A stretch of 36,681 nt of DNA from Bacteroidales bacterium Bact_11 (GTDB taxonomy: Bacteria; Bacteroidota; Bacteroidia; Bacteroidales; UBA932): positions 1-36,681 of the forward strand of contig LUZC01000014.1 in the NCBI GenBank assembly GCA_001603505.1, written 5' to 3'. Both the position numbers and the translations under genes were made by a program. Positions 1,271 through 25,875 of this stretch are shown piece after piece (within the stretch, counting starts at the first letter, position 1; each line of letters starts with the position of its first letter). Below the pieces are notes generated by a model. The model was not told the DNA's origin. It made no database searches and saw only the letters and a program-made list of their open reading frames with translations.

Positions 1271-4200
1271 GTGAAGAAAGCTGCCTGGTTTTTGGTTCGG
1301 TATAGATGGACGTTGCTGATTGTGACGGTAGGGGTTGCTATCGGCAGCCTCTTGCTCATTCCCCGGGTGAACATCAATACCGACCTGACGCGCTACCTGC
1401 CGGAAGATTCTCCGATGAAGCAGGGCATGGACCGGATGCGGGAGGATTTCCCCGGTATCGACACGCGGATGCGGGCCCTTGACGTGATGTTCACGGTGCC
1501 TGTCGACGTGGAAGAGATGCGCGCGGAACTTGCGCCCTTCACGGAAGGCCTGACCGATATGGGCGTGCGGGAATCGCCGCCCTACACCTTGTTCCAATAC
1601 CGGATATCCGGTTCGGGCGATCCGCTCGTGTTGAAAGAAGCTGTGCAACAGCACTTCGGCGAGCGTGTCGTGGTGGAGATTTCCGGCGAGGAAAAGATGC
1701 CGCCCGACATCGTTTTCATCCTGGTGCTCGGCGTGTCGTTGGCTTTCGTCATTCTGGTAATCATGTGCGCCTCCCTGATGGAAGTTGTCCTGTTTTTGGT
1801 GACCATGGGGCTGGCCGTCCTGATCAACATGGGTACGAATGCTCTTCTCGACAGTGTCTCGATGATTACCAGCACGCTGGTCGCCGTGCTGCAACTGGTG
1901 CTTTCGATGGACTTTGCCATCATCGTGGCCAATCGTTACCGCCAGGAGAAAGCGCTCTGTCCCGATCGTGAATCAGCCATGGCCGCGGCACTCTCCGGTG
2001 CCATGCCGTCCGTCTTGAGCAGTGCACTGACCACGATCGTCAGTCTCCTGATGCTGGTGTTCATGCGTTTCAAGATAGGCACCGACATCGGCGTGGTGCT
2101 TTCGAAGGGCGTGTTCTCCAGCCTCCTGTGTACGTTTACGGTGCTTCCTGCCCTGGCGCTGCTGTGCGACAAGGCTATAGATGCGACGCAGAAGAAAGTG
2201 CCGGCCCTGCCGGCGAAAGCCCTGGCCCGCTTTGAGATGCGGTTCCGGATTCCGCTTGCGCTGCTTTTCGTGGCGCTGTTTGTGGGATCGTTCCTGCTGC
2301 AGAAGCGCACGGTCATCTCGTTCTCTGCTTTCTGGCCTACGGAGATTACGTCTGAATTCCCACCCCAGAATCCAATGATGCTGCTCTATGATACCGCCGA
2401 CGAGGCAGCGGTTCCTTCGATGATGGATACGCTGGAGACGGATCCGATGGTGGCCTCGGCGGTCAGCTATCCGGGAATGGTGCTGCGGAAGTACACGGCT
2501 GAGGAAATGGCGCAGCGCTATGCGTCGCTTTCGCCGATGATGTCCGACGAGTTGCTCCAGATGGTGTATTATGCACGCTCGCATCCCGACAGGACAGAAC
2601 GGTTCAGCCTCGGGGAACTGCAGGATTATGCGGCGGAGCTGGCCGATCGCGGCCTGGTGCCCGAGGGTTTTGACGTGGCTTCGCTCACGCGTCGTTTTCA
2701 GGCGATGGCCGATGCCCCCGAAGAAGTTCCGGAAGCGGAATCCGTCGTGGAACCGGAACCTGAGCCAGCACCCGAAGTGCCTGCCGAGCCCGAACAGGAA
2801 GCCGAACCCCCGGCCGCCGATACCCTTGAACAGCCATTGCCGCCTGTTACCGATACGACGGTTGCTTCGGTGGATAGCCTGCCCAAACAACAGCCGGCAG
2901 GGATGACGTACGAAGAGGCAACCCGGCAACGGACACCTCGTGAAATGGCACGCCATACCGGCATCAGCCGCACGCAGACAGCGATGCTCTATCGACTTGC
3001 GGGGCGTATGGGGAAAGGTGCGTCGGGTACCATGTCGCTCCATGAAATGGTTCGGTTTGCCGTCAAGGAAGTGCTTCCCGACAAAAGATATGCGGCCTTT
3101 ATTTCCAAGGAACAGAAAGAGGAATTGCAGTGGCATCTGCATGCGCTCGACTCGGTCGTTGCAGCAGGACCCCTGATGCCGATGGAGGAGGTTCCAGTGC
3201 CTTCCGCTCCGGAGGAGGTCGTGCCTGCGGAAGATTCCCTTCAGGCGGTGTCGGTTCCGGTAGAAGTGGTGGAATCGGTCCCGGATTCTGTGCCGGAACC
3301 TGAACCGGAAATCGAACCCGAGCCCGAACCGACGCCATTGGAGTGGCTTGCAGAGATGGCTTTCTCCGGAGAGCGTTCTACTGCGGCGCGTACTGGCCGG
3401 GCGTTGCGGGCTGCCGGCATTCCCGTGTCGCAGCAGGATATGGACCTGATGTACCTGTATGCCGCCAGCCGCAGGGATGCCGATCCTGAGGCCCGGATGT
3501 CGGTGAGCGAACTGGTGACTTATCTGGCCGATACGCTGCTGGTGGATCCTGCTTTCAGCCGGTTTGTCGACGATGATTCTCGAAAACAACTCTTGGAAGC
3601 AAAAGAATTGCTGGTAGGCAGCGTGGATGCACTCCGGTCTGATCGGAGTTCGATTGCCGCACTCATTACCGATTATCCGCGCGAGTCTCCTGAGACCTTT
3701 GCTTTCATCGACAGTCTGCAGGCGATGGGCGACCGGGACCTGACGGCCAATCATTATCTGGTGGGGGAATCGGTGATGTTCCGGGAGCTGAAGGAGTGTT
3801 TTCCGTCGGAGTTGCTGCTTCTGACGCTACTGACGATTGCGTCGATTTTCCTGATCGTGGCCTTTACGTTCCGTTCGCTGCTGATACCCGTGTTCCTGGT
3901 TATCACCGTGTTGACCGGTGTGTATTTCAATGTGTTTGCCAGCGGATGGGGCGGCAATACGATGTTCTTCCTGGCGTATCTGATCGTACAGAGCATTCTG
4001 ATGGGCGCCATCATCGATTATTCGATTCTGATTACGCATTATTATTTGGAAAGCCGTAAGACACACGATGTGCCTGAGGCACTGGTCGAAGCCTATCGGG
4101 GATCGGGTCATTCGATCATGACTTCCGGCCTGATCATCGTGCTTACGCCGTTGTTGATGTACATCACGCTTAACGATCCGATGATCGCCATGATCCTGAA

Positions 4201-4294
4201 GAGTCTTTCCATCGGCGCCTTCGCCGCCATCCTGATCATTCTGCTGGTCCTTCCGGGCATGCTCGCTTTTTGCGACCGCCTCATCAAGAAATAG
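1271..4294 (+). CDS. MMPL/RND-superfamily transporter with enlarged, repeat-bearing second extracytoplasmic loop
   Basis: A 1007-residue membrane protein with the MMPL plan: one helix at about 9-30, an extracytoplasmic loop, a helix block at 147-300, a second half starting at a helix near 328-343, a very large loop, and a final helix block at 846-1000. The motif LSMDFAIIVANRYRQE (211-226) and its counterpart GAIIDYSILITHYYLE (912-927) carry the paired acidic residues expected in TM4 and TM10 for proton coupling. MMPL proteins export lipids or other hydrophobic substrates; the substrate here is unknown. The second loop holds two Pro/Glu-rich linkers (about 485-527 and 637-689) separating three similar helical modules near 408-455, 553-600 and 702-755. 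GTG at 1271 is the only start codon between the upstream stop at 1250 and the first helix. Confidence 0.88.
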   Translation: MKKAAWFLVRYRWTLLIVTVGVAIGSLLLIPRVNINTDLTRYLPEDSPMKQGMDRMREDFPGIDTRMRALDVMFTVPVDVEEMRAELAPFTEGLTDMGVRESPPYTLFQYRISGSGDPLVLKEAVQQHFGERVVVEISGEEKMPPDIVFILVLGVSLAFVILVIMCASLMEVVLFLVTMGLAVLINMGTNALLDSVSMITSTLVAVLQLVLSMDFAIIVANRYRQEKALCPDRESAMAAALSGAMPSVLSSALTTIVSLLMLVFMRFKIGTDIGVVLSKGVFSSLLCTFTVLPALALLCDKAIDATQKKVPALPAKALARFEMRFRIPLALLFVALFVGSFLLQKRTVISFSAFWPTEITSEFPPQNPMMLLYDTADEAAVPSMMDTLETDPMVASAVSYPGMVLRKYTAEEMAQRYASLSPMMSDELLQMVYYARSHPDRTERFSLGELQDYAAELADRGLVPEGFDVASLTRRFQAMADAPEEVPEAESVVEPEPEPAPEVPAEPEQEAEPPAADTLEQPLPPVTDTTVASVDSLPKQQPAGMTYEEATRQRTPREMARHTGISRTQTAMLYRLAGRMGKGASGTMSLHEMVRFAVKEVLPDKRYAAFISKEQKEELQWHLHALDSVVAAGPLMPMEEVPVPSAPEEVVPAEDSLQAVSVPVEVVESVPDSVPEPEPEIEPEPEPTPLEWLAEMAFSGERSTAARTGRALRAAGIPVSQQDMDLMYLYAASRRDADPEARMSVSELVTYLADTLLVDPAFSRFVDDDSRKQLLEAKELLVGSVDALRSDRSSIAALITDYPRESPETFAFIDSLQAMGDRDLTANHYLVGESVMFRELKECFPSELLLLTLLTIASIFLIVAFTFRSLLIPVFLVITVLTGVYFNVFASGWGGNTMFFLAYLIVQSILMGAIIDYSILITHYYLESRKTHDVPEALVEAYRGSGHSIMTSGLIIVLTPLLMYITLNDPMIAMILKSLSIGAFAAILIILLVLPGMLAFCDRLIKK

Positions 4295-15576: not shown

Positions 15577-17025
15577 ATGGGGGAATCGACACTGAAAGAA
15601 AAGACCTCCAGGGGTTTGTTCTGGGGAGGCATGAGCAGTTTTCTCCAACAACTGCTCAGTGCAGCGTTTGGCATTTATCTGGCCCGCACGCTGTCGCCCG
15701 ACGATTATGGCATGGTCGGGATGCTGACCATCTTCACGATGTTGTCGATGGTTCTTCAGGAGGGTGGTTTTACCTCCGCGCTGATCAACCGGAAGGAGAT
15801 ACGCCACGAGGACTATAATTCGGTTTTCTGGTTCAGTTTACTCATCTCGATTGCCTGCTACCTCGTCTTGTTCCTGTGTGCGCCGCTGATCGCCCGCTTT
15901 TACCATCACCCTGAATTGGTGAAGCTCTCCCGTTGGAACTTTCTGGGCATAGTCTTGACTGGTTTCGGGATTTCGCACCGGGCGTATCTGACCAAGCATC
16001 TGCGGGTTAAGGAGATTGCGATGGTCACGATTACCGCAGTCGCCATATCCGGCTCCATAGGCGTGTACCTTGCCTGGAAGGGGTATGCCTATTGGACACT
16101 GGTGATCCAAGCGCTGATCCTGACCGGATTGACCAATGCGGGACTCTGTGCTTTCTCCGGATGGAGACCGACATTCCATATTGATTTCGGCCCGGTCAAG
16201 GAAATGCTGCGGTACAGCATCAAGTTGATTGTTACTTCGATTCTGAGTATTCTCAGCAGCAACCTGATCACCGTGATCCTGGGCAGGTTCTATTCGGCGG
16301 TTCGCGTGGGCTATTACACCCAGGCGAACAAATGGAACGTGATGGGGACGACGTCGCTGACGGGAATGATCAACAGCGTGGCTCAGCCGGTGCTTGTGGA
16401 AGCGGTGGAAGACCGTCCGCGACAGTTGAACATTTTCCGGAAGCTGATTCGCTTTACGGCGTTCGTTGCCTTTCCCGCGATGTTGGGGCTGGGATTCATC
16501 GCTCCGGAGTTCATCACGGTCGCATTGACTGACAAATGGGCCGACAGCATTGTCCTGTTACAGATTCTTTGTATTGGAGGCGCCTTTCTTCCCATTTCAA
16601 CGGTCTGTTCCAATCTGGTGCTCAGCCGTGGACATTCCGGGCAGTATATGTGGGCCAACATCATTCTGCTGGCGGTCACGCTGGGATTGATCTATTTGCT
16701 CTTCCCCTATGGCGTTACCAGCATGGTTGTCGGTATCACGGTGGCCAATGTGCTATGGTTGGCGATCTGGCTGTTCTTTCTGTGGAAGGAACTGGGTTAT
16801 ACGCTGCTCAAGATGCTGAAAGACCTGCTTCCTTTCCTGGGGGCGACCGCCTTGTCCATAGCAGCGGCATGGCTTCTGACGAAGTCTGTATCGAATATCT
16901 ATATCCTGCTGTGTGCGAAGATTCTCATAACGGCTGCCCTCTACGCGCTGATTCTTTGGGTGTCGCGGGCTGCCATTTTCCGGGAAAGCATACAGATGCT
17001 TCTTGCCATGATAAAAAAGAAATAA
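15577..17025 (+). CDS. Oligosaccharide flippase (Wzx/MOP-superfamily polysaccharide exporter)
   Basis: A 482-residue multi-pass membrane protein with about a dozen to fourteen hydrophobic helices and the family opening SRGLFWGGMSSFLQQL with YLARTLSPDDYGMVGML. This is the WzxC/TuaB-like branch that moves lipid-linked oligosaccharide units across the inner membrane. It heads a tight run of nucleotide-sugar and glycosyltransferase genes, with rfbF starting four bases after its stop. A role as the exporter for the sugar unit made by the downstream enzymes follows from context. No polymerase (Wzy) is seen in the plus-strand block, though YfhO or genes outside the window could serve. Confidence 0.9.
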   Translation: MGESTLKEKTSRGLFWGGMSSFLQQLLSAAFGIYLARTLSPDDYGMVGMLTIFTMLSMVLQEGGFTSALINRKEIRHEDYNSVFWFSLLISIACYLVLFLCAPLIARFYHHPELVKLSRWNFLGIVLTGFGISHRAYLTKHLRVKEIAMVTITAVAISGSIGVYLAWKGYAYWTLVIQALILTGLTNAGLCAFSGWRPTFHIDFGPVKEMLRYSIKLIVTSILSILSSNLITVILGRFYSAVRVGYYTQANKWNVMGTTSLTGMINSVAQPVLVEAVEDRPRQLNIFRKLIRFTAFVAFPAMLGLGFIAPEFITVALTDKWADSIVLLQILCIGGAFLPISTVCSNLVLSRGHSGQYMWANIILLAVTLGLIYLLFPYGVTSMVVGITVANVLWLAIWLFFLWKELGYTLLKMLKDLLPFLGATALSIAAAWLLTKSVSNIYILLCAKILITAALYALILWVSRAAIFRESIQMLLAMIKKK

Positions 17026-17029
17026 TACG

Positions 17030-17812
17030 ATGAAAGTGGTTTTACTGGCCGGTGGTTTCGGCACGCGGATCGCGGAAGAGTCGATTGCCAAACCCAAACC
17101 GATGATCGAAATCGGGGGAATGCCCATCCTTTGGCACATCATGAAAGAGTATGCATTCTACGGGCACACGGAGTTCATTATCTGCGCCGGCTACAAACAG
17201 CATATGATCAAGCAGTGGTTCTCCGAATATTTCCTCTATAGCAGTGATGTGACGTTCGACTATGCGGAGGGTGCCAACAGCGTAATCGTTCATCGGAGTA
17301 CCTGCGAGCCCTGGAAGGTGACCGTGGTCGATACGGGGCTCAATACGATGACAGGTGGTCGGATCAAGAGGATTCAACCCTATGTGGGGAACGAACCGTT
17401 CATGATGACCTATGGTGACGGTGTGTGCGACGTGGACATCAACGAGCTGATCGCGTTCCACAAGTCGCACGGCAAGATCGCTACGCTCACAGCCGTGCAA
17501 CTTGAGCAGCAGAAGGGTGTGCTTGACATCGGAGGCGACAACGCCGTCAAATCGTTCCGCGAAAAGAACCTGGCCGACAGCGCCCCGATCAACGCGGGCT
17601 ATATGGTGCTTGAACCAGAGATTTTCGACTATCTCGAAGGTGACCAGACGGTATTCGAACGGGAACCGCTGGAGCGTCTGGCTGCGGAAGGACAACTGAT
17701 GTCATACCGCCACAAGGGATTCTGGCAGTGTATGGATAATAAGCGGGAAATGGATATGCTGGAAAAGATGCTGGCCACAGGGAATGCTCCCTGGAAAAAG
17801 TGGAATGATTGA
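17030..17812 (+). CDS. rfbF: Glucose-1-phosphate cytidylyltransferase
   Basis: A 260-residue nucleotidyltransferase forming CDP-glucose from glucose-1-phosphate and CTP, the entry step to CDP-linked 3,6-dideoxyhexoses. The signature LLAGGFGTRIAEES at 5-18 is specific to this family, followed by KPKPMIEIGGMPILWHIMK. TYGDGVCDVDI near 129 supplies metal-binding aspartates, and KGFWQCMDNKREMDML is the usual ending. Length is normal (about 257-260). It is four bases from the flippase stop and eleven bases from the rfbH ATG. Equivalent names are ddhA and ascA. Confidence 0.96.
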   Translation: MKVVLLAGGFGTRIAEESIAKPKPMIEIGGMPILWHIMKEYAFYGHTEFIICAGYKQHMIKQWFSEYFLYSSDVTFDYAEGANSVIVHRSTCEPWKVTVVDTGLNTMTGGRIKRIQPYVGNEPFMMTYGDGVCDVDINELIAFHKSHGKIATLTAVQLEQQKGVLDIGGDNAVKSFREKNLADSAPINAGYMVLEPEIFDYLEGDQTVFEREPLERLAAEGQLMSYRHKGFWQCMDNKREMDMLEKMLATGNAPWKKWND

Positions 17813-17822
17813 CAGGACTCCT

Positions 17823-19157
17823 ATGAAGAAAAAAGACGCATTAAAGCAGCAGATTCTTGAATTGACGCGGGAATACTATCGGGAAGTCCACGCGCCGCAG
17901 CCTCCGTTTGTCCCGGGCACTACGCGGGTGAACTATGGCGGCCGCTTTTTCGACGACGCCGAGATGGTCAACCTGGTCGATGCGTCGCTCGATTTCTGGC
18001 TGACGGCCGGACCCTGGGCGACCCGCTTCGAGAAAGGGCTGGCCCGGTGGCTGGGCGTGAAATACTGCTCGCTCTGCAACAGCGGCTCCAGCGCCAATCT
18101 GCTAGCTTTCAGCGCGCTGACCGCGCATGAACTGGGCGACCGCGCCATCCGGCGCGGCGATGAGGTCATCACCGTGGCGGCGGGTTTTCCGACCACCGTG
18201 GCCTGCATCGTACAGTTCGGTGCCGTCCCCGTTTTCGTAGACATGAGCGCGGAAGAGGGCAACATGGACTGCTCGCAGCTGGAAGCGGCGCTTTCTCCCA
18301 GGACGAAGGCAGTGATGCTGGCGCATTCGCTGGGCAATCCGTTCAATCTGGAAGCCGTGGTGGCTTTCTGCAGGAAGCACAACTTGTGGCTGGTGGAGGA
18401 CAACTGCGATGCGCTTGGTTCCGAATACTTCATCGACGGGGTATGGAAGAAAACCGGTACCATCGGAGATATCGGAACAAGCAGCTTCTATCCGCCGCAC
18501 CACATGACCATGGGCGAGGGCGGAGCCGTCTATACCAACAACCGCGAGCTCGACAAATATGTGAAGAGTTTCCGCGACTGGGGCCGCGACTGCTGGTGCA
18601 TCGGCGGCGTTGACAACACCTGCGGGTGCCGTTTTACCGGCCAGTTCGGCAAACTCCCCCATGGCTACGACCACAAGTATGTGTACAGTCTCCTCGGCTA
18701 CAACTTGAAGGCCACCGACCTGCAGGCCGCCATCGGCTGCGCACAGCTTGAGAAGCTGGATTTCATCGTAGCGCGTCGCAGGGAGAATTTCCAGACCTTG
18801 TACGACGGCCTGAAGGGCGTACCCGGGCTGTTGCTGCCCGAGCCGCAGAAGAACAGCCGCCCCAGCTGGTTCGGTTTCTTCATCACCGTGAAGGAAGATG
18901 CCGGGTACACCCGCAACGAACTGACCTCCTATCTGGAGGAGCACCGGGTGCAGACGCGCAATCTCTTCGCCGGCAATCTGCTGCTGCATCCCGCTTTCGA
19001 AGAATATGTCGAGGGCAGGGACTACCGTACCATCGGCAGCCTGCCTGTCACCAACCGCATCATGAACGACAGTTTCTGGCTGGGCGTGTATCCCGGCATG
19101 ACGCCCGAGAAACTGCAATATATGATCGATTGCATCAAATCATTTTGCCAACGATGA
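17823..19157 (+). CDS. rfbH: CDP-6-deoxy-L-threo-D-glycero-4-hexulose 3-dehydrase (E1)
   Basis: A 444-residue PMP-dependent, iron-sulfur enzyme that removes the C3 hydroxyl in 3,6-dideoxyhexose synthesis. The usual PLP-binding lysine is replaced by histidine in SFYPPHHMTMGEGG (His226/227), the hallmark of this family. The 2Fe-2S ligands are visible as Cys195, Cys257, Cys259 and Cys267; the C-X-C-X7-C part (DCWCIGGVDNTC) agrees with characterised E1. E1 needs a separate NADH-dependent reductase (E3), which is not found in this window. ATG at 17823 is chosen over an upstream start inside rfbF because it begins the normal N-terminus. The stop overlaps the rfbG start by four bases. Also called ddhC or ascC. 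Confidence 0.95.
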   Translation: MKKKDALKQQILELTREYYREVHAPQPPFVPGTTRVNYGGRFFDDAEMVNLVDASLDFWLTAGPWATRFEKGLARWLGVKYCSLCNSGSSANLLAFSALTAHELGDRAIRRGDEVITVAAGFPTTVACIVQFGAVPVFVDMSAEEGNMDCSQLEAALSPRTKAVMLAHSLGNPFNLEAVVAFCRKHNLWLVEDNCDALGSEYFIDGVWKKTGTIGDIGTSSFYPPHHMTMGEGGAVYTNNRELDKYVKSFRDWGRDCWCIGGVDNTCGCRFTGQFGKLPHGYDHKYVYSLLGYNLKATDLQAAIGCAQLEKLDFIVARRRENFQTLYDGLKGVPGLLLPEPQKNSRPSWFGFFITVKEDAGYTRNELTSYLEEHRVQTRNLFAGNLLLHPAFEEYVEGRDYRTIGSLPVTNRIMNDSFWLGVYPGMTPEKLQYMIDCIKSFCQR

Positions 19158-20233
19158 AAGATACATTCAACGGATTCTACGCGGGAAAGCGGGTACTGGT
19201 CACCGGCCATACCGGCTTCAAGGGCAGCTGGCTCTGCATTTGGCTTCACGGGCTGGGTGCCGAAGTGGTGGGCGTTGGATTGGAACCCTATACGGAAAAG
19301 GACAATTTCGTGTTGAGTGGTATCGGCGGGAAGATCATGGCCGACATCCGCGCCGATATCCGTGACGGCCGGAAGATGAAGGAACTCTTCGCGCAGTACC
19401 GGCCGGAGATCGTATTCCATCTGGCCGCACAGCCGCTCGTCCGCCTCAGCTACGAGATTCCCGTCGAAACGTACGAAGTCAACGTGATGGGCACCGTCAA
19501 TGTGATGGAGGCCATCCGGGCAACCGACAGCGTGAAAGTCGCCGTGATGATTACCACGGACAAGTGTTACGACAACAAGGAACGGCTGACGGGGTATAAG
19601 GAGGACGATCCCTTCGGTGGATATGATCCGTATTCCAGCAGCAAGGGTGCCTGTGAAATCGCCATCCAGAGCTGGCGCCGCAGTTTCTTCAACCCTGAAG
19701 ATTATGGCACGAAGCACCACATCAGCCTGGCCAGCGTACGCGCCGGTAACGTGATCGGCGGCGGCGACTGGGCGAAAGACCGCATCGTCCCCGACTGTAT
19801 CCGTGCCCTGGAAGCAGGAGAGCCCATCGGCATCCGGAGTCCCAAGGCGGTCCGGCCGTGGGAGCACGTGCTGGAGCCGCTTTCCGGTTATCTGCTGTTG
19901 GCAAAGAAGATGTGGGAGCAGCCCACGGAATACTGTGAGGGCTGGAATTTCGGCCCCGAGGCTCAGGCCCTGTCCACAGTGTGGGATGTGGCCTCGGAAC
20001 TGGTGCGCCAGTACGGCCAGGGAGAACTCCGGGACATTTCGAATCCGGCGGCTCCCCATGAAGCGGGCCTGCTGACGCTCGACATCACCAAGGCCAAAAC
20101 GCGCCTGGGTTGGCATCCGACCCTCGACATGAAGCAGACGATGGCTCTGGTGGCCGACTGGTATAAACGGTACCGTCGTGAAGACGTATATTCGATTTGT
20201 ATGGATGAAATAGCTTGTTTTCTTGCATCATGA
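19154..20233 (+). CDS. rfbG: CDP-glucose 4,6-dehydratase
   Basis: A 359-residue extended short-chain dehydrogenase converting CDP-glucose to CDP-4-keto-6-deoxyglucose. VLVTGHTGFKGSWL at 14-27 is the NAD-binding glycine motif with the FKGSW variant typical of this family. The catalytic triad region shows MITTDKCYDN and YDPYSSSKG (YxxxK), and ASVRAGNVIGGGDWAKDR follows. ATG at 19154 overlaps the rfbH stop as ATGA. The order here, F-H-G, differs from the common F-G-H order in enterobacterial clusters. Its own stop again overlaps the next ATG by four bases. Also called ddhB or ascB. Confidence 0.96.
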   Translation: MKDTFNGFYAGKRVLVTGHTGFKGSWLCIWLHGLGAEVVGVGLEPYTEKDNFVLSGIGGKIMADIRADIRDGRKMKELFAQYRPEIVFHLAAQPLVRLSYEIPVETYEVNVMGTVNVMEAIRATDSVKVAVMITTDKCYDNKERLTGYKEDDPFGGYDPYSSSKGACEIAIQSWRRSFFNPEDYGTKHHISLASVRAGNVIGGGDWAKDRIVPDCIRALEAGEPIGIRSPKAVRPWEHVLEPLSGYLLLAKKMWEQPTEYCEGWNFGPEAQALSTVWDVASELVRQYGQGELRDISNPAAPHEAGLLTLDITKAKTRLGWHPTLDMKQTMALVADWYKRYRREDVYSICMDEIACFLAS

Positions 20234-21960
20234 AAGTATCGGATTATATCGTGTCCCTGCTCGCTGATCGCGGTGTCAACACCGTGTTCGGCTACATCGG
20301 TGGCATGATTACCCACCTGGTCGATTCTTTGGGACAAAGCCAGCAGGTCCGGTATGTCCAAACCCTTCACGAACAGACGGCGGCAATTGCGGCGGAAGGC
20401 TATGCTCTGGAGAGCGGCAAGTTCGGCGTTGCCATCTGTACGAGTGGCCCCGGGGTAACGAATCTGATTACCGGCATCGCCGATGCGTATTTCGGATCTA
20501 TTCCCGTTCTCTTTATTTCCGGTCAGGTCAATACGTATGAATACAAATACGACAAACCCGTCCGGCAGCAGGGCTTTCAGGAGATGGACGTCGTCAGCGT
20601 AGTGAGCCCCATTACTAAATACTCCGTCCTGCTGGATGATGCGGATAAAGTTAAGTATGAATTTGAAAAGGCGATCCATATCGCCACGCACGGGCGGAAA
20701 GGGCCGGTCATGATCGACTTGCCCATGGATATTTCCCGGGCCGAAATCGACGTGTCCGGCCAGCGGGGTTATGTGCCGGAAGAAGAAACGCTTCTCGACC
20801 TGGATATGGAGAGCTTCCGTTCATTGGTGGAATCGGCCGAGCGACCGATGTTCCTGGTGGGTGGCGGCTGCCAGGGGGCGGGCGTTAAAGCGGAGTTGGA
20901 TGCGCTGCTCAGGCAGACGGGAATCCCTGTCGTTACTTCCTTGATGGGACGTGGACTTATCGATGAGACATTTCCCCATTATATCGGAATGATCGGGAGC
21001 TATGGAAATCGTAGCGCCAATATGGCTGTTGCCCGGGCAGATCTGTTGATTGCGCTGGGGAGCCGTTTGGATACCCGTCAGACCGGAGCCATGTACCAGT
21101 CGTTCCTGCGGAACGGAACGGTCATCCATGTAGACATTGACGAAAATGAATTGGATGGCAATCGGCTGGAAAATCGTGTGAAGGTACATGCGGATGTCGC
21201 TCAGTTTGTCCGGGCGATGAAGGAAGCCCATTTCCAGTATAGGGATTACACCGAGTGGAATGGTTGGATCAAAACCATCAAACAGCATTTTGGCCAGGAA
21301 GCCGAGATTGAACGGTTTGTCGATAATAAAGCGCCCTATCGTATCCTGCAGGATTTGAACAAAATCACCCGAAAAGACGATATCGTCACAGCGGACATCG
21401 GGCAGAACCAGATGTGGGCTGCCCAGACCTTGCAGATGAAGAAGGGGATGAAGTTCGTCACGAGCGGTGGTCTCGCTCCTATGGGATTCTCCCTTCCCGT
21501 AGCCATCGGGATGGCATTTGCCCGTCCGGACAAGCGCGTCTTCTGCCTGACCGGTGACGGCGGCTTGAACATGGCGCTCCAGTCGCTGGGCGTGATCGCG
21601 CAATATGGTTTGAATATCAAGGTGATTGTCCTGAACAATGCCGCACTGGGCATGATTACGCAGTTTCAGCATCTCTATTTCCAAGACCGGATGTTCGGAA
21701 CGACTGCTGAGGGAGGTTACATCAACCCCGATTTCGCTGCATTGGCAACAGCGTTCGGATTGCCCTATATCGAGACGAGCGGCGGGCTGCCCGATCATTG
21801 GGAAAACGCCGATAAACCCGTTCTCGTCAACTGCCTGATTGAGGGACGGACCACCGTGTCTCCGAAATTGGAGTACAATTCTCCGATAGACAAGCCCTCT
21901 CCCCAGCTGGATGCCGGGGAATTTGACCGATTCATGGGGACACGATGCCCAAATAGCTGA
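20230..21960 (+). CDS. Thiamine-diphosphate enzyme, acetolactate-synthase-like; probable YerE-type CDP-sugar two-carbon transferase
   Basis: A 576-residue protein with the three-domain AHAS/pyruvate-oxidase plan: pyrimidine-binding domain with the activating Glu48 (LHEQTAAIAAEGYAL), a central nucleotide-binding-type domain (about 190-330), and a ThDP pyrophosphate-binding domain with GDGG at 442-445 and LNN at 468-470. General acetolactate synthase is possible from sequence alone. Position inside an operon that makes CDP-3,6-dideoxy-4-ketohexose strongly suggests the role of YerE of Yersinia pseudotuberculosis, which decarboxylates pyruvate and adds the two-carbon unit to C4 of that sugar. 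No small regulatory AHAS subunit or branched-chain amino-acid gene lies nearby. The next gene starts five bases later. Confidence 0.8.
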   Translation: MKVSDYIVSLLADRGVNTVFGYIGGMITHLVDSLGQSQQVRYVQTLHEQTAAIAAEGYALESGKFGVAICTSGPGVTNLITGIADAYFGSIPVLFISGQVNTYEYKYDKPVRQQGFQEMDVVSVVSPITKYSVLLDDADKVKYEFEKAIHIATHGRKGPVMIDLPMDISRAEIDVSGQRGYVPEEETLLDLDMESFRSLVESAERPMFLVGGGCQGAGVKAELDALLRQTGIPVVTSLMGRGLIDETFPHYIGMIGSYGNRSANMAVARADLLIALGSRLDTRQTGAMYQSFLRNGTVIHVDIDENELDGNRLENRVKVHADVAQFVRAMKEAHFQYRDYTEWNGWIKTIKQHFGQEAEIERFVDNKAPYRILQDLNKITRKDDIVTADIGQNQMWAAQTLQMKKGMKFVTSGGLAPMGFSLPVAIGMAFARPDKRVFCLTGDGGLNMALQSLGVIAQYGLNIKVIVLNNAALGMITQFQHLYFQDRMFGTTAEGGYINPDFAALATAFGLPYIETSGGLPDHWENADKPVLVNCLIEGRTTVSPKLEYNSPIDKPSPQLDAGEFDRFMGTRCPNS

Positions 21961-21965
21961 GAGAA

Positions 21966-23819
21966 ATGGTCTTTTTCATCACAGGTGCAACCAGTTTTAT
22001 TGGCAAGGCGTTGTGCCGGCATCTGGTCGAAGCCGGCGACCGGGTCGTTGCGGTGACCCGGCATGCTTGCCCGGAGCTGGAGGAGCTCGTCCCGACCGGA
22101 CGGCTGGAATTGCTGCATACAGACCTTCAGCAACTGGCGGCGACCGCCCTCCCGCTCCATGCGGATGTGCTGATCCACCTGGCATGGATGGGCGTCAGGA
22201 GAGAAGATCGCTGCGATGCCGAGATGCAGGGCAGCAACATTCCCCTGTCGCTCGAAATGATCGCTCTGGCCGGTCGGATAGGCTGCCGTCTGTATGTCGA
22301 TGCCGGCTCCCAGGAGGAATATGGCATTGTCCGTGGACCCGTCTCCGAAGAGACCCCCTGCCATCCCGCTACGGAATACGGAAAGGCCAAGCTGCAGTTG
22401 TACGAAGCTTCGCGGGAAGCTTGTGACAAGCTGGGCATCAAATATCTGCATCCGCGCATCTTCAGCGTCTATGGCGAAGACGACCATCCGAATACGCTGG
22501 TCATGACGGCGGCCCGGAAAATGCGCAGGAATGAACCCCTGTCCCTGAGTTCCTGTACGCAGAAGTGGAACTATCTGTGTGTAAGAGACGCTGCTGCCAT
22601 TCTCGGTGCCTTGTGCCGAAAAGCCGTGGACGACGCCTCATTTCATTCGGAGGTCTTCCTGGTCGCTTCGCGCGATACCCGGCCCTTGAAGGATTTCGTC
22701 GAATCAATGAAAGCGGTTCTCCATTCGGATAGCCGTCTGGACTATGGTTTGGCGAATCCCGACAAGGACGTGTGGTTGGAACCGGACCTGAGCAAGCTGA
22801 CAGCTGCCGTGGGACAACTGGAGTCGCACCGTTTTGAAGAGGTGGTGGCCCGTCTGGGGACTGATCCCGTCCTCTCCATAAGCATTCCCATCTACAACCG
22901 GTCGCAGTGTCTTGTCCGGATGCTCGACCGTTTCCTGGAGGACAGCGACCTCTTCGAGGAGAAGATCTATCTCTATGTGTCGGACAACTGCTCTACGGAG
23001 GACCTGAAGTCCATCGTTGACGGGTATGTGGCAAGAGGACTGCGTGTCCATTACCACCGGAACGAAGAGAACATCGGGGCGGATCTGAACATCTGTGCCT
23101 GCTTCCGTGCCGGGCAGGGGAAGTATACACTGGTGCTGGGCAGCGATGATATTCCGCAGAGCGGTTTTTTGCGCGGGCTGCTCCCGATCCTGGAAGATGG
23201 GGAGTACGGGATGGTTCACATCAATATCTATGACGGCAGGAAAAACTGGATGACGCAGGAATACCGCGATGCGGAAAAGTTCTTCGTCGACATGCATGGC
23301 TGGATTACCTTCATCAGCATCCACATCGTGGCTACGCGTTTCATCCCGCAGGTGCCGGTGGAAAGCTATGCCTCCAAGAACCTGGCCCAGATACCGCTGT
23401 ATCTGAAAGCCGGTGTAGAGAGCGAACGGAATCTGGTCGTGAACCACGTGTTCCTGACACCGAGCGAAAACGGCAATCCGGCCGACACGGCCGGTTATAA
23501 CGCCTTTCAGGTGTTTATCGTGTATCTGCTGGACTTGCTCGACGAGGCCGTCGCAAAGGGGCAGCTTTCCCGTAAGGCCTACAAGGCCATCAAGCGGCGA
23601 ACCTACAAGTATATTATCACCCAGCATATCGTCAATCTCCTCATCCTCAAACGGACCAATTACAACCACAATTCCCGCACCGGCTGGAAGATCGTCTGGG
23701 AATACTACGGGAAGCACTTGTACGCATACTATTATCTGGCGTGGCGCATTGTGTACGCTGCGTGCCATCTGGTGTTCGTCAAGAAGCTGGGATGGGGCAA
23801 GAAGCAAAGGCCGTCATGA
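21966..23819 (+). CDS. Fusion protein: YerF-like NAD(P)-dependent sugar reductase/epimerase plus family 2 glycosyltransferase
   Basis: A single 617-residue frame with two domains. Residues 1 to about 290 form an extended short-chain dehydrogenase: FITGATSFIGKAL (4-16) for cofactor binding and YGKAK (Tyr138, Lys142) as catalytic YxxxK. Residues about 300-560 form a GT2 GT-A domain: LSISIPIYNRSQCL, VSDNCSTEDL, NEENIGADLN and LGSDD (Asp394/Asp395), resembling dideoxyhexose (abequosyl-type) transferases. By position after the YerE-like gene, the first domain is proposed to reduce the branched ketone to the final sugar, as YerF does, and the second to transfer it. The sequence runs unbroken through the linker at about 22860, with no internal stop, so this is a real fusion in the assembly. 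The stop overlaps the next ATG by four bases. Confidence 0.82.
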   Translation: MVFFITGATSFIGKALCRHLVEAGDRVVAVTRHACPELEELVPTGRLELLHTDLQQLAATALPLHADVLIHLAWMGVRREDRCDAEMQGSNIPLSLEMIALAGRIGCRLYVDAGSQEEYGIVRGPVSEETPCHPATEYGKAKLQLYEASREACDKLGIKYLHPRIFSVYGEDDHPNTLVMTAARKMRRNEPLSLSSCTQKWNYLCVRDAAAILGALCRKAVDDASFHSEVFLVASRDTRPLKDFVESMKAVLHSDSRLDYGLANPDKDVWLEPDLSKLTAAVGQLESHRFEEVVARLGTDPVLSISIPIYNRSQCLVRMLDRFLEDSDLFEEKIYLYVSDNCSTEDLKSIVDGYVARGLRVHYHRNEENIGADLNICACFRAGQGKYTLVLGSDDIPQSGFLRGLLPILEDGEYGMVHINIYDGRKNWMTQEYRDAEKFFVDMHGWITFISIHIVATRFIPQVPVESYASKNLAQIPLYLKAGVESERNLVVNHVFLTPSENGNPADTAGYNAFQVFIVYLLDLLDEAVAKGQLSRKAYKAIKRRTYKYIITQHIVNLLILKRTNYNHNSRTGWKIVWEYYGKHLYAYYYLAWRIVYAACHLVFVKKLGWGKKQRPS

Positions 23820-24859
23820 AAACGCGATATCCACAGGGAGAGAATCTGACGGTCTCCGTGGCCAAGGGGCTTTGCATCCTGCTGGTGGTCGTGGGGCACT
23901 CCGGATGTCCCGACTTGCTCGGCCGGTTCATCTATTTGTTCCACGTGCCCCTTTTCTTCTTTACTTCCGGCTATTTCAACAAGATTGCTGAAGATTTCGG
24001 CACATTGAAACAGCGGTTGTGGAGTAGGGTGAAGCGGCTTTATATCCCTTTTGTCCTCTACGGTTTGCTATTTCTGCTGCTCCAGCCGCTGCTGATCCGT
24101 GTCGGCTGGGAGGTGGACGATGGCCGGAGTCTGTTAACCAAAAGCTTGCTGATGCTCTTCAAGATGGATCCGCCATCCGTGCTGCTGGGCGGGTTCTGGT
24201 TTGTCCGGTCGCTGTTCATCGCGGCTGTGGCGGCGGATATCGTGCTGTTCCTCGTGCGTAAACGCGTGCCGGTGTGGGCGCTTTTCCTCTTCTTCGCATT
24301 TGTGGCAATGGGGTTGAAGAGTTTTCCTCCGGGAACTCCGGTTGTCCGGCAACTGTCGCTGGCCGTGCTGGGCATGGTGTTCTTTCTGTTCGGTATGGTG
24401 TATCGGTCGGTCGAGGGGAGATGGGCGTTGCTTTCAAAATCGTGGATGCTCCTGCCGGCTCTTTTGGTGTTGCTCTCTCAAACGCTCTTTTATCCGGGCG
24501 ATTTGAGCATCTCTTGCATCGGTGCGCTGGATACGGGGGTATTCATCGCTACGGCGCTCATCGGCATCTATTTCGTGATGGGCGTCTCCCAATGGCTGTC
24601 CCGATCCGTGCTGATGGGCCCATTCCGGTATATGGGTAACCAGACCCTGGTGATCCTGGCGCTCCATTTCCTCTGCTTCAAGCTCGTGAGCTGGGCGGCC
24701 GTCGCGCTGTACGGGATTCCGTATGGCGAGATTGCCGGTTCCGTGGTGCTGTCAGGCCTGCCCGGAGGCTGGTGGCTGCTATATACCCTGGCCGGAATCG
24801 GTCTTCCGCTGTTGGCGGGTTATCTGTTTGATTTGTTACGGTCATGTCGAAAGTCCTGA
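23816..24859 (+). CDS. Membrane acyltransferase family 3 protein (O-acetyltransferase-like)
   Basis: A 347-residue polytopic protein with about ten hydrophobic helices. VSVAKGLCILLVVVGHSG near the N-terminus contains the conserved His of the acyltransferase 3 family; FHVPLFFFTSGYF and GNQTLVILALHFL are further family motifs. These proteins usually acetylate surface or lipid-linked sugars at the inner membrane. In this operon it most likely decorates the glycan assembled by neighbouring enzymes, but donor and acceptor cannot be read. ATG at 23816 forms an ATGA overlap with the preceding stop and is preferred to upstream starts inside the glycosyltransferase. Its 3' end overlaps the next gene by 16 bases. 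Confidence 0.86.
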   Translation: MKTRYPQGENLTVSVAKGLCILLVVVGHSGCPDLLGRFIYLFHVPLFFFTSGYFNKIAEDFGTLKQRLWSRVKRLYIPFVLYGLLFLLLQPLLIRVGWEVDDGRSLLTKSLLMLFKMDPPSVLLGGFWFVRSLFIAAVAADIVLFLVRKRVPVWALFLFFAFVAMGLKSFPPGTPVVRQLSLAVLGMVFFLFGMVYRSVEGRWALLSKSWMLLPALLVLLSQTLFYPGDLSISCIGALDTGVFIATALIGIYFVMGVSQWLSRSVLMGPFRYMGNQTLVILALHFLCFKLVSWAAVALYGIPYGEIAGSVVLSGLPGGWWLLYTLAGIGLPLLAGYLFDLLRSCRKS

Positions 24860-25875
24860 TCATCGGTCCGAATTATTTCAATTTCCTTTCCGCCGTGGAA
24901 ACGGCCTACCGGGAACTGGGTTGGGAGGCCTGTGTGTGCGGGTATGATACGCCCGTGCATCCGTACAAGGGACTGGCCCCTCTGCGCTATAAATTGAGCC
25001 GGCAGCGCGAGGCTCTGGTGCAGAAAAGCCGTGCCGCATTCCGGGAGCAGGCCCTGCAGGCATTCGACCAGGCCCGGCCCGACCTGGTGTTCATCATGAA
25101 CGGCGACATGCTGGAAACTGCGACGCTCGACCTCTTCCGTGAAACGGCGAAAGTGGCGCTGTGGCTGTTCGACAGCCGCACAAAGTTGCCTGCTTCCCTC
25201 GGTCATGCCGGCCATGTCGACGCTCTGTTCTGCTTCGAACAGGATGACGTGGCGTGGTTCCGGTCGCAGGGGGAGCAGGCGTCCTTTCTGCCGCAGGCAT
25301 GTGATACGGCGCGGTATTTTCCGATTCCCGGGGCGCGAAAGGATATCGACATCCTATTTGTGGGGAATCTCTACTATTCTCCCCGGCGCAAGGCGCTGAC
25401 CGAAGCGGTGATCGGACATTTCCCCGACCGTCGCATCGAGATATATGGCTGGTATCAGCCCTGGTTCAAGGGCCTTGGCAAATGGCTCCGCAGGCCTCAC
25501 AAGGCTATCTATAAGAATGTCAATGTGTCGAGCGAGGAAGCCAACCGGCTCTACAACCGGGCAAAGGTGGTACTCAACATTCACCAGGAACATCAGCGCG
25601 ACGGCGCGAATCCGCGCGTTTTCGAGATCTGCGGTTCGGGCGCCTGGCAGGTGTGCGACCGCAATCCCTATGTGGCGTCGCTCTTCCCGGACGGAGAAGT
25701 TGGCTTGTATTCCGATGAACAAGAGCTATTTGCTCAAATCGCGTGTGGACTGGACGCCGATACCTCGGCCCAGGCCGCGGCTGCCTGTAGGCGGGTACGG
25801 TCGGAGCATTCTTTCCGAAACAGGATGGAGCAGGTGCTTACGACGGTTTTCGGACCTTCCGAAGCATCCGTTTGA
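24844..25875 (+). CDS. CgeB-like glycosyltransferase
   Basis: A 343-residue GT-B-like protein. The N-terminus SKVLIIGPNYFNFLSAVETAY opens the first Rossmann half, and VALWLFDSRTKLPASLGHAG is typical of the CgeB/DUF3880 group. The second half has DIDILFVGNLYYSPRR and, near the C-terminus, NIHQEHQRDGANPRVFEICGSG, matching the donor-binding region of Glyco_trans_1_2 proteins with a Glu in the E-x7-type position. Donor and acceptor are unknown. It is the last gene of the plus-strand polysaccharide operon. Its final 38 bases overlap, tail to tail, the 3' end of the minus-strand fucosyltransferase gene. Confidence 0.82.
   Translation: MSKVLIIGPNYFNFLSAVETAYRELGWEACVCGYDTPVHPYKGLAPLRYKLSRQREALVQKSRAAFREQALQAFDQARPDLVFIMNGDMLETATLDLFRETAKVALWLFDSRTKLPASLGHAGHVDALFCFEQDDVAWFRSQGEQASFLPQACDTARYFPIPGARKDIDILFVGNLYYSPRRKALTEAVIGHFPDRRIEIYGWYQPWFKGLGKWLRRPHKAIYKNVNVSSEEANRLYNRAKVVLNIHQEHQRDGANPRVFEICGSGAWQVCDRNPYVASLFPDGEVGLYSDEQELFAQIACGLDADTSAQAAAACRRVRSEHSFRNRMEQVLTTVFGPSEASV

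Follow-up and report, generated by a model that had tools for sequence, protein, structure and literature searches.

The 36,681-nt contig LUZC01000014.1 of Bacteroidales bacterium Bact_11 (assembly GCA_001603505.1), referred to here in its full length as the window, carries at positions 21966–23819 of the forward strand one gene that joins an extended short-chain dehydrogenase/reductase (SDR) to a family 2 glycosyltransferase (GT2). The gene lies in a tight operon behind RfbF, RfbH, RfbG and a YerE-like, thiamine diphosphate (ThDP)-dependent enzyme. On balance, we favor the view that this in-frame fusion encodes a real bifunctional protein, which would reduce the product of the YerE-like enzyme and transfer the resulting yersiniose-type cytidine diphosphate (CDP) sugar. 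The view draws on the frame, the two complete domains, the cluster, relatives in which the halves are split and an SDR clade associated with YerE.

A single frame encodes a complete SDR and a complete GT2 domain

Translation of 21966–23819 gave a single stop-free frame of 617 codons. Under a plain base-composition model, a stop-free run of this length has a probability of about 8e-11; the longest open run in the remaining five frames is 369 codons, and the guanine plus cytosine (GC) content by codon position is periodic throughout, the joint included. Pfam placed Epimerase (PF01370) at residues 4–220, with 101.1 bits against a gathering score of 20.9, and Glycos_transf_2 (PF00535) at residues 304–435, with 61.1 bits against 23.3. 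Extended SDRs are marked by an N-terminal cofactor glycine motif and YxxxK, and the first half accordingly shows TGATSFIG (residues 6–13), GSQ (114–116) and YGKAK (138–142), the last of which is the YxxxK; serine occupies the middle glycine position of TGATSFIG, as it does in several relatives. The GT2 half combines a GT-A fold with a DxD-like acidic motif, SDD, at residues 393–395. These data confirm one continuous SDR–GT2 frame in which both domains are intact, as the preliminary description of this DNA had claimed.

The border between the domains is sharp. Similarity to SDRs ends at L297 and similarity to glycosyltransferases begins at P301, with G298-T299-D300 between them. In the predicted structure of the full-length protein, the SDR helix ends at residue 297 and the first GT strand starts at residue 303, but this model, with a predicted template modeling score (pTM) of 0.57, yields no trustworthy interface, and the hope that structure prediction would show how the halves meet was disappointed. 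The match list of the full model was taken up by the SDR half, and the GT half was folded and structure-searched alone. Two in-frame GTG codons stand directly before the GT half, at window positions 22842–22847, and could permit internal initiation of a free transferase.

The SDR half belongs to a clade associated with YerE-like enzymes

Relatives were sought in a collection that represents each of 84,980 species by a single genome. Two peptide patterns from the SDR half returned 118 relatives, the best 80 loci being kept; a separate scan with pattern P0001 alone gave no match. One locus (L026), a copy of locus L004 in genome G244 of the same genus, was dropped, leaving 79. At 25 of these the best SDR scored at least 260 bits, and a YerE-like gene lies within 6 kb in 22 of the 25. 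Of the other 54 loci, 34 have CDP genes and none has a YerE-like gene. RfbF, RfbG or RfbH lies within 6 kb at 19 of the 25 close-SDR loci. The expectation that the fused domains keep to CDP-sugar loci thus stands for these 19 SDRs; of the remaining six loci, five have a YerE-like gene, and one is a contig of 6 kb in all.

A quick tree of 84 SDRs, with Shimodaira–Hasegawa-like approximate likelihood ratio test (SH-aLRT) support only, placed the window's SDR beside SDRA of G244 (support 93). Both belong to a clade of 28 SDRs (support 98) that has a YerE-like gene within 6 kb in 24 rows, against none of 53 in the other main group. The tree left out L026, L023 (the same place as L041) and loci whose best SDR scored below 120 bits; the rows of the window and of SDRB, a second G244 SDR, received their YerE labels by hand, and both SDRB and the SDR of L011 have long branches and an unsure place. 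The proposed YerE-type link of the reductase is therefore borne out by the 24 of 28, and the existence of an SDR clade tied to YerE-like enzymes is the more general result of this work. On the simplest reading of these associations, the SDR half would reduce the ketone on the branch added by the ThDP enzyme. Epimerase-type nucleotide-sugar SDRs have a like fold and like motifs, but are 18% identical to this half, which is a predicted reductase.

The association extends to divergent ThDP enzymes. In G807, a later match through its SDR, the genes for RfbF, RfbG, SDR, a YerE-like protein (40%) and RfbH are consecutive, and the SDR-linked ThDP enzymes found outside the genus in the scan share 30 to 36% identity with that of the window. 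The ThDP enzyme at L041 7918–9726 has 8rph as its nearest solved chain, and that of the window has 5ahk, so members of the SDR clade are paired with two ThDP subfamilies or more; the second was also seen at other loci among L027–L050. When the window's YerE-like protein itself was searched for, the phylum sample returned the source genome only at E 1e-150 (1 of 395), and the family sample returned four of 299 genomes at 1e-170, all within the genus. In two other genomes of the genus a different GT2 gene directly follows YerE: locus L011 (G250) has an SDR before YerE, whereas in L010 (G135) that place is taken by an FkbM methyltransferase together with a different SDR.

The halves are separate genes in relatives

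The nearest counterpart is G244, where the order is RfbF-RfbH-RfbG-YerE-SDRA-GT2a-SDRB-GT2b-acetyltransferase. Gene families and order around RfbF-RfbH-RfbG-YerE are like those of the window, but the halves of the fusion correspond to two proteins, SDRA (47% identical) and GT2b (40%), with GT2a and SDRB intervening, whereas the window has one. The claim that reductase and transferase are separate elsewhere was upheld in the relatives examined, both here and at the scanned loci. We infer that the fusion arose when the two genes separating SDRA from GT2b were lost, although the extra genes may instead have been gained in G244. The G244 locus (L004 7226–11015) is a tandem SDR-GT2-SDR-GT2 array in which, over the aligned part, the SDRs are about 24% and the GT2s about 23% identical. 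The SDR half was also considered as a recombinant of SDRA and SDRB and rejected as such: SDRA was closer in all 30-column windows, except for a tie in the last.

The GT half was followed with a GT-only profile, which in the order (393 genomes) matched, besides the source genome, G681 and G326 only. In G681 (L041), RfbH, RfbF, RfbG, an SDR and a YerE-like gene precede the GT2; in G326, RfbF, RfbG, RfbH and an SDR lie within about 8 kb of it. In the phylum (168 genomes), the genomes matched through the GT half were G756, where RfbF, RfbG, a YerE-like gene and an SDR with a weak match lie upstream of the GT2, and G775, with no CDP-sugar or YerE-like gene in the 11.5 kb up to the contig end. The association of the transferase with CDP-sugar loci, expected earlier, thus holds for three of these four relatives; for G775 the neighborhood breaks off at the contig end. 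The same three of four speak for the proposal that the transferase uses the product of the reductase, while the position of G244 GT2b next to SDRB speaks against it; taken together, the loci support the CDP-sugar product of the SDR half as the predicted donor of the GT half.

Among the scanned loci, the closest GT is 44% identical (L048, G1075, RUG13584); the contig has RfbF, RfbH and RfbG 21 to 25 kb from the GT, and a YerE-like gene and an SDR nearby. The YerE-like gene of RUG13584 (L048 688–4740, L110 7917–9672) has an HMGL-like gene and a HAD phosphatase alongside and, by eye, a split transketolase-like pair upstream, neighbors that may point to a branch donor other than pyruvate. Among GT2 transferases of the TarS, TarP and CgT type, two that were compared share 13–14% identity with the GT half; these transferases have no fused SDR, and their donors presumably differ from the one proposed here.

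The fused form was found in one genome

Searches for the fused form returned only the source genome, that is one of 40 genomes in the genus, one of 299 in the family, one of 393 in the order and one of 168 in the phylum. These samples overlap partly and few candidates were scored per genome (for example 3 of 12), so that a low-ranking fusion could have escaped. In the scanned loci, none of 124 SDR and 76 GT2 frames from 85 loci held both domains in one frame; this check covered frames of at least 150 aa with small custom hidden Markov models (HMMs) at E 1e-8, and some of the 124 are RfbG-type. Of the SDR frames, 85 reached 120 bits or more, and five of these, including two from G244, have a GT2 gene directly behind them: SDR and GT2 genes are sometimes adjacent, not fused. 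Among plasmids, 44 records matched and none spanned 80% of the query, and none of the papers listed by literature searches for SDR–GT fusions describes one. Further SDR–GT2 fusions may well exist, domain-architecture databases having been outside our scope. The preliminary description had proposed to look for this architecture elsewhere and to see whether it always follows YerE-like genes; the first part came back with the source genome only, which left no second fused case for the second.

Other joined enzymes do occur in such clusters. Two SDR frames in the scanned loci reach at least 400 aa, and the one examined, L083 7001–8590 from a Methylococcales draft genome, lies in an RfbF-RfbG cluster and encodes 529 aa with an SDR and an RMNT_CmcI methyltransferase (PF04989, 326 bits); its SDR is distant, of the wider family. 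L044 12548–14287, from a Clostridiales draft genome, encodes 579 residues with a hexapeptide acetyltransferase and a GT2, in a cluster that also holds RfbH, a YerE-like gene and an SDR. Enzyme fusion in these clusters is therefore not unique. These two proteins and Gal10 (1z45) are likewise joinings of sugar enzymes, but none pairs an SDR with a GT2, and that pairing is the part unseen elsewhere.

The fusion lies in a CDP-sugar operon

The window is an entire contig of a draft genome of 1.88 Mb in 105 contigs, 81% complete. The fusion starts 5 nt past the YerE-like gene's stop codon, and its own stop shares an ATGA with the ATG that follows, as would be expected of genes in one operon. The genes around it are listed in Table 1. 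RfbF, RfbH and RfbG all exceed the curated NCBIfam cut-offs, which bears out the assignment to a CDP-dideoxysugar cluster; we take RfbH to be the pyridoxal phosphate-dependent C3-deoxygenation enzyme (E1). The YerE-like protein carries a GDG motif and, among the NCBIfam matches listed, scores under the acetolactate-synthase equivalog cut-offs; its best solved chain, 5ahk, is presumably Pseudomonas YerE.

Table 1. Genes of the cluster and parts of the fused gene, in window coordinates.
Feature	Position	Strand	Basis
Wzx-type flippase, nearest NCBIfam model 'O-glycosylation flippase'	15577..17025	+	NF058658, 644.5 bits over 1-476, cut-off 720 missed
RfbF, glucose-1-phosphate cytidylyltransferase	17030..17812	+	TIGR02623, 354.9 bits, cut-off 300.25
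RfbH	17784..19157	+	NF011936, 683.7 bits, cut-off 423
RfbG, CDP-glucose 4,6-dehydratase	19130..20233	+	TIGR02622, 476.7 bits, cut-off 278.45
YerE-like ThDP-dependent carboligase	20215..21960	+	three TPP-enzyme Pfam domains; solved chain 5ahk best, 377 bits
SDR half of the fusion, predicted CDP-ketosugar reductase, extended SDR	21966..22856	+	residues 1-297
Joint, three residues G298-T299-D300	22857..22865	+	ends of SDR and GT similarity
GT2 half of the fusion, predicted glycosyltransferase	22866..23819	+	residues 301-617 and stop
Membrane acyltransferase, proposed start overlapping the fusion stop	23816..24859	+	PF01757, 75.8 bits on longer frame from 23741
Glycosyltransferase (Glyco_trans_1_2)	24844..25875	+	PF13524, 83.5 bits

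In the pathway that we propose, RfbF, RfbG and RfbH would yield CDP-4-keto-3,6-dideoxyglucose, to whose C4 the YerE-like enzyme would attach an acyl group, probably acetyl, as a branch. The SDR half, with NAD(P)H, would reduce the branch ketone to give a CDP-yersiniose-type octose; the GT2 half would move this sugar onto a growing lipid-linked glycan, and the adjacent Wzx would flip the latter. The cofactor, substrate, product, donor, acceptor and glycan type given for the fused enzyme are those that we infer. Fusion would presumably bring 1:1 co-expression and possibly channeling. The earlier interpretation is partly supported, its weaker part being that the transferase should use the product of this reductase.

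YerE is described as acting on CDP-3,6-dideoxy-4-keto-D-glucose, and structures are reported for PpYerE and JanthE (PMC12247030). The ketoreduction that follows YerE in yersiniose synthesis was given in 2016 as uncharacterized; the same account shows Pau7, the ketoreductase of the paulomycin pathway, to belong to the aldo-keto reductases and states that the yersiniose cluster lacks a homologue of it (PMC4753412). Pau7 is thus of a different family from the window's SDR. Like the yersiniose pathway, the window combines RfbF/G/H with a YerE-like ThDP enzyme and a candidate for the ketoreductase; it differs in having reductase and transferase in one protein. Our literature search found no report of C-branched CDP sugars in Bacteroidales glycans. 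We advance only tentatively the fuller proposal that one polypeptide channels a CDP-C-branched octose into transfer in a Bacteroidales glycan, and that the SDR clade performs the yersiniose-type ketoreductase step (PMC4753412).

The locus was also considered as one of the Bacteroidota general protein O-glycosylation (lfg) kind and was not so assigned, Wzx being under its cut-off and metG elsewhere. Over its full length Wzx reaches 644 bits against the 720 of NF058658, and the genome holds no other match to that model. In the Bacteroides O-glycosylation loci described, metG adjoins wzx at the locus start (PMC12871550, PMC8698959). No metG stands beside the present cluster; seven matches to the metG model, all under cut-off, lie on other contigs of this fragmented assembly. 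The two best are partial and split over contigs C55 and C21, perhaps a sign of assembly fragmentation. The window's FucT (PF18025, PF00852) belongs to a different family from the GT2-type FucT described for lfg loci (PMC8698959). At 1271–4294 the window also encodes a large membrane protein that, as judged by eye, is RND/MMPL-like; it contains a long insert rich in Pro and Glu.

Alternative readings of the fusion

Several points weigh against a bifunctional enzyme of YerE-dependent chemistry. The fusion is known from one draft genome only and may be without functional meaning beyond joint expression. GT2b of G244 adjoins SDRB rather than SDRA, and the ancestral partners could differ. Several of the GT2 relatives are distant, among them that of G681, 23% identical to the fusion, and that of G326, matched over 123 positions only. 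In the SDR clade, four of the 28 rows have no YerE-like gene seen nearby. One of these four, at locus L024 (G620), has RfbF/G/H and no YerE-like gene in the 16 kb covered, so that even members of this clade may be plain C4 ketoreductases.

The fusion may, then, be real but incidental, intervening genes having been lost and the halves left uncoupled, acting on different sugars or at different steps. We consider this unlikely, though it deserves weight. It would fit the spacing in G244, where SDRA overlaps GT2a by 4 nt and GT2b starts 9 nt behind SDRB, so that neither half of the fusion has the other as its neighbor. It would also fit the three-residue joint, given that the C-terminal tail past this helix is short or absent in the SDR relatives listed, as well as the single fused genome and the unrelated fusions in comparable clusters. 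However, in G1075 (L048/L110) and in G681 (L041) each cluster has one close SDR and one such GT2, and the CDP clusters around three of the four GT-half relatives likewise argue for halves that work on one sugar.

A second possibility, which we regard as improbable, is that the SDR half acts as a C4 ketoreductase and supplies the GT half with an unbranched, abequose- or paratose-like CDP-3,6-dideoxyhexose, with the YerE-like enzyme serving another sugar. The SDR half has its fold in common with C4 reductases and epimerases, and CDP genes occur without a YerE-like gene both at the 34 of 54 distant-SDR loci and, within the close clade, at L024. The window's SDR and its nearest relatives belong, however, to the YerE-associated clade, and the C4 ketone would be consumed by YerE. 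Finally, it is very improbable that two overlapping genes were merged by one base missing from the assembly: although this is a draft genome with a run of four G exactly at the joint (22856–22859), where one extra G would close the SDR at TGA 22862 and let the GT start at TTG 22834, the error would have to fall inside a stretch of roughly 10 nt right where the domains meet (SDR in frame to 297, GT from 301), codon periodicity is unbroken there, and a split GT would have no ATG near its natural beginning.

Implications

Bifunctional reduction and transfer, the reading favored here, involves known families in a known type of pathway, newly joined in one protein and, so far, in one genome. The advance is modest: neither the domains nor the pathway are new in kind, clusters of this sort hold other fusions, and there is a single sighting. 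A natural fusion nevertheless hints at the chain of its substrates. Should the SDR supply the donor of the attached GT, a candidate for the yersiniose-type ketoreductase and a transferase for such a sugar would be directly testable with one protein. If true, this would also suggest that C-branched CDP sugars are used for surface glycans in Bacteroidales.
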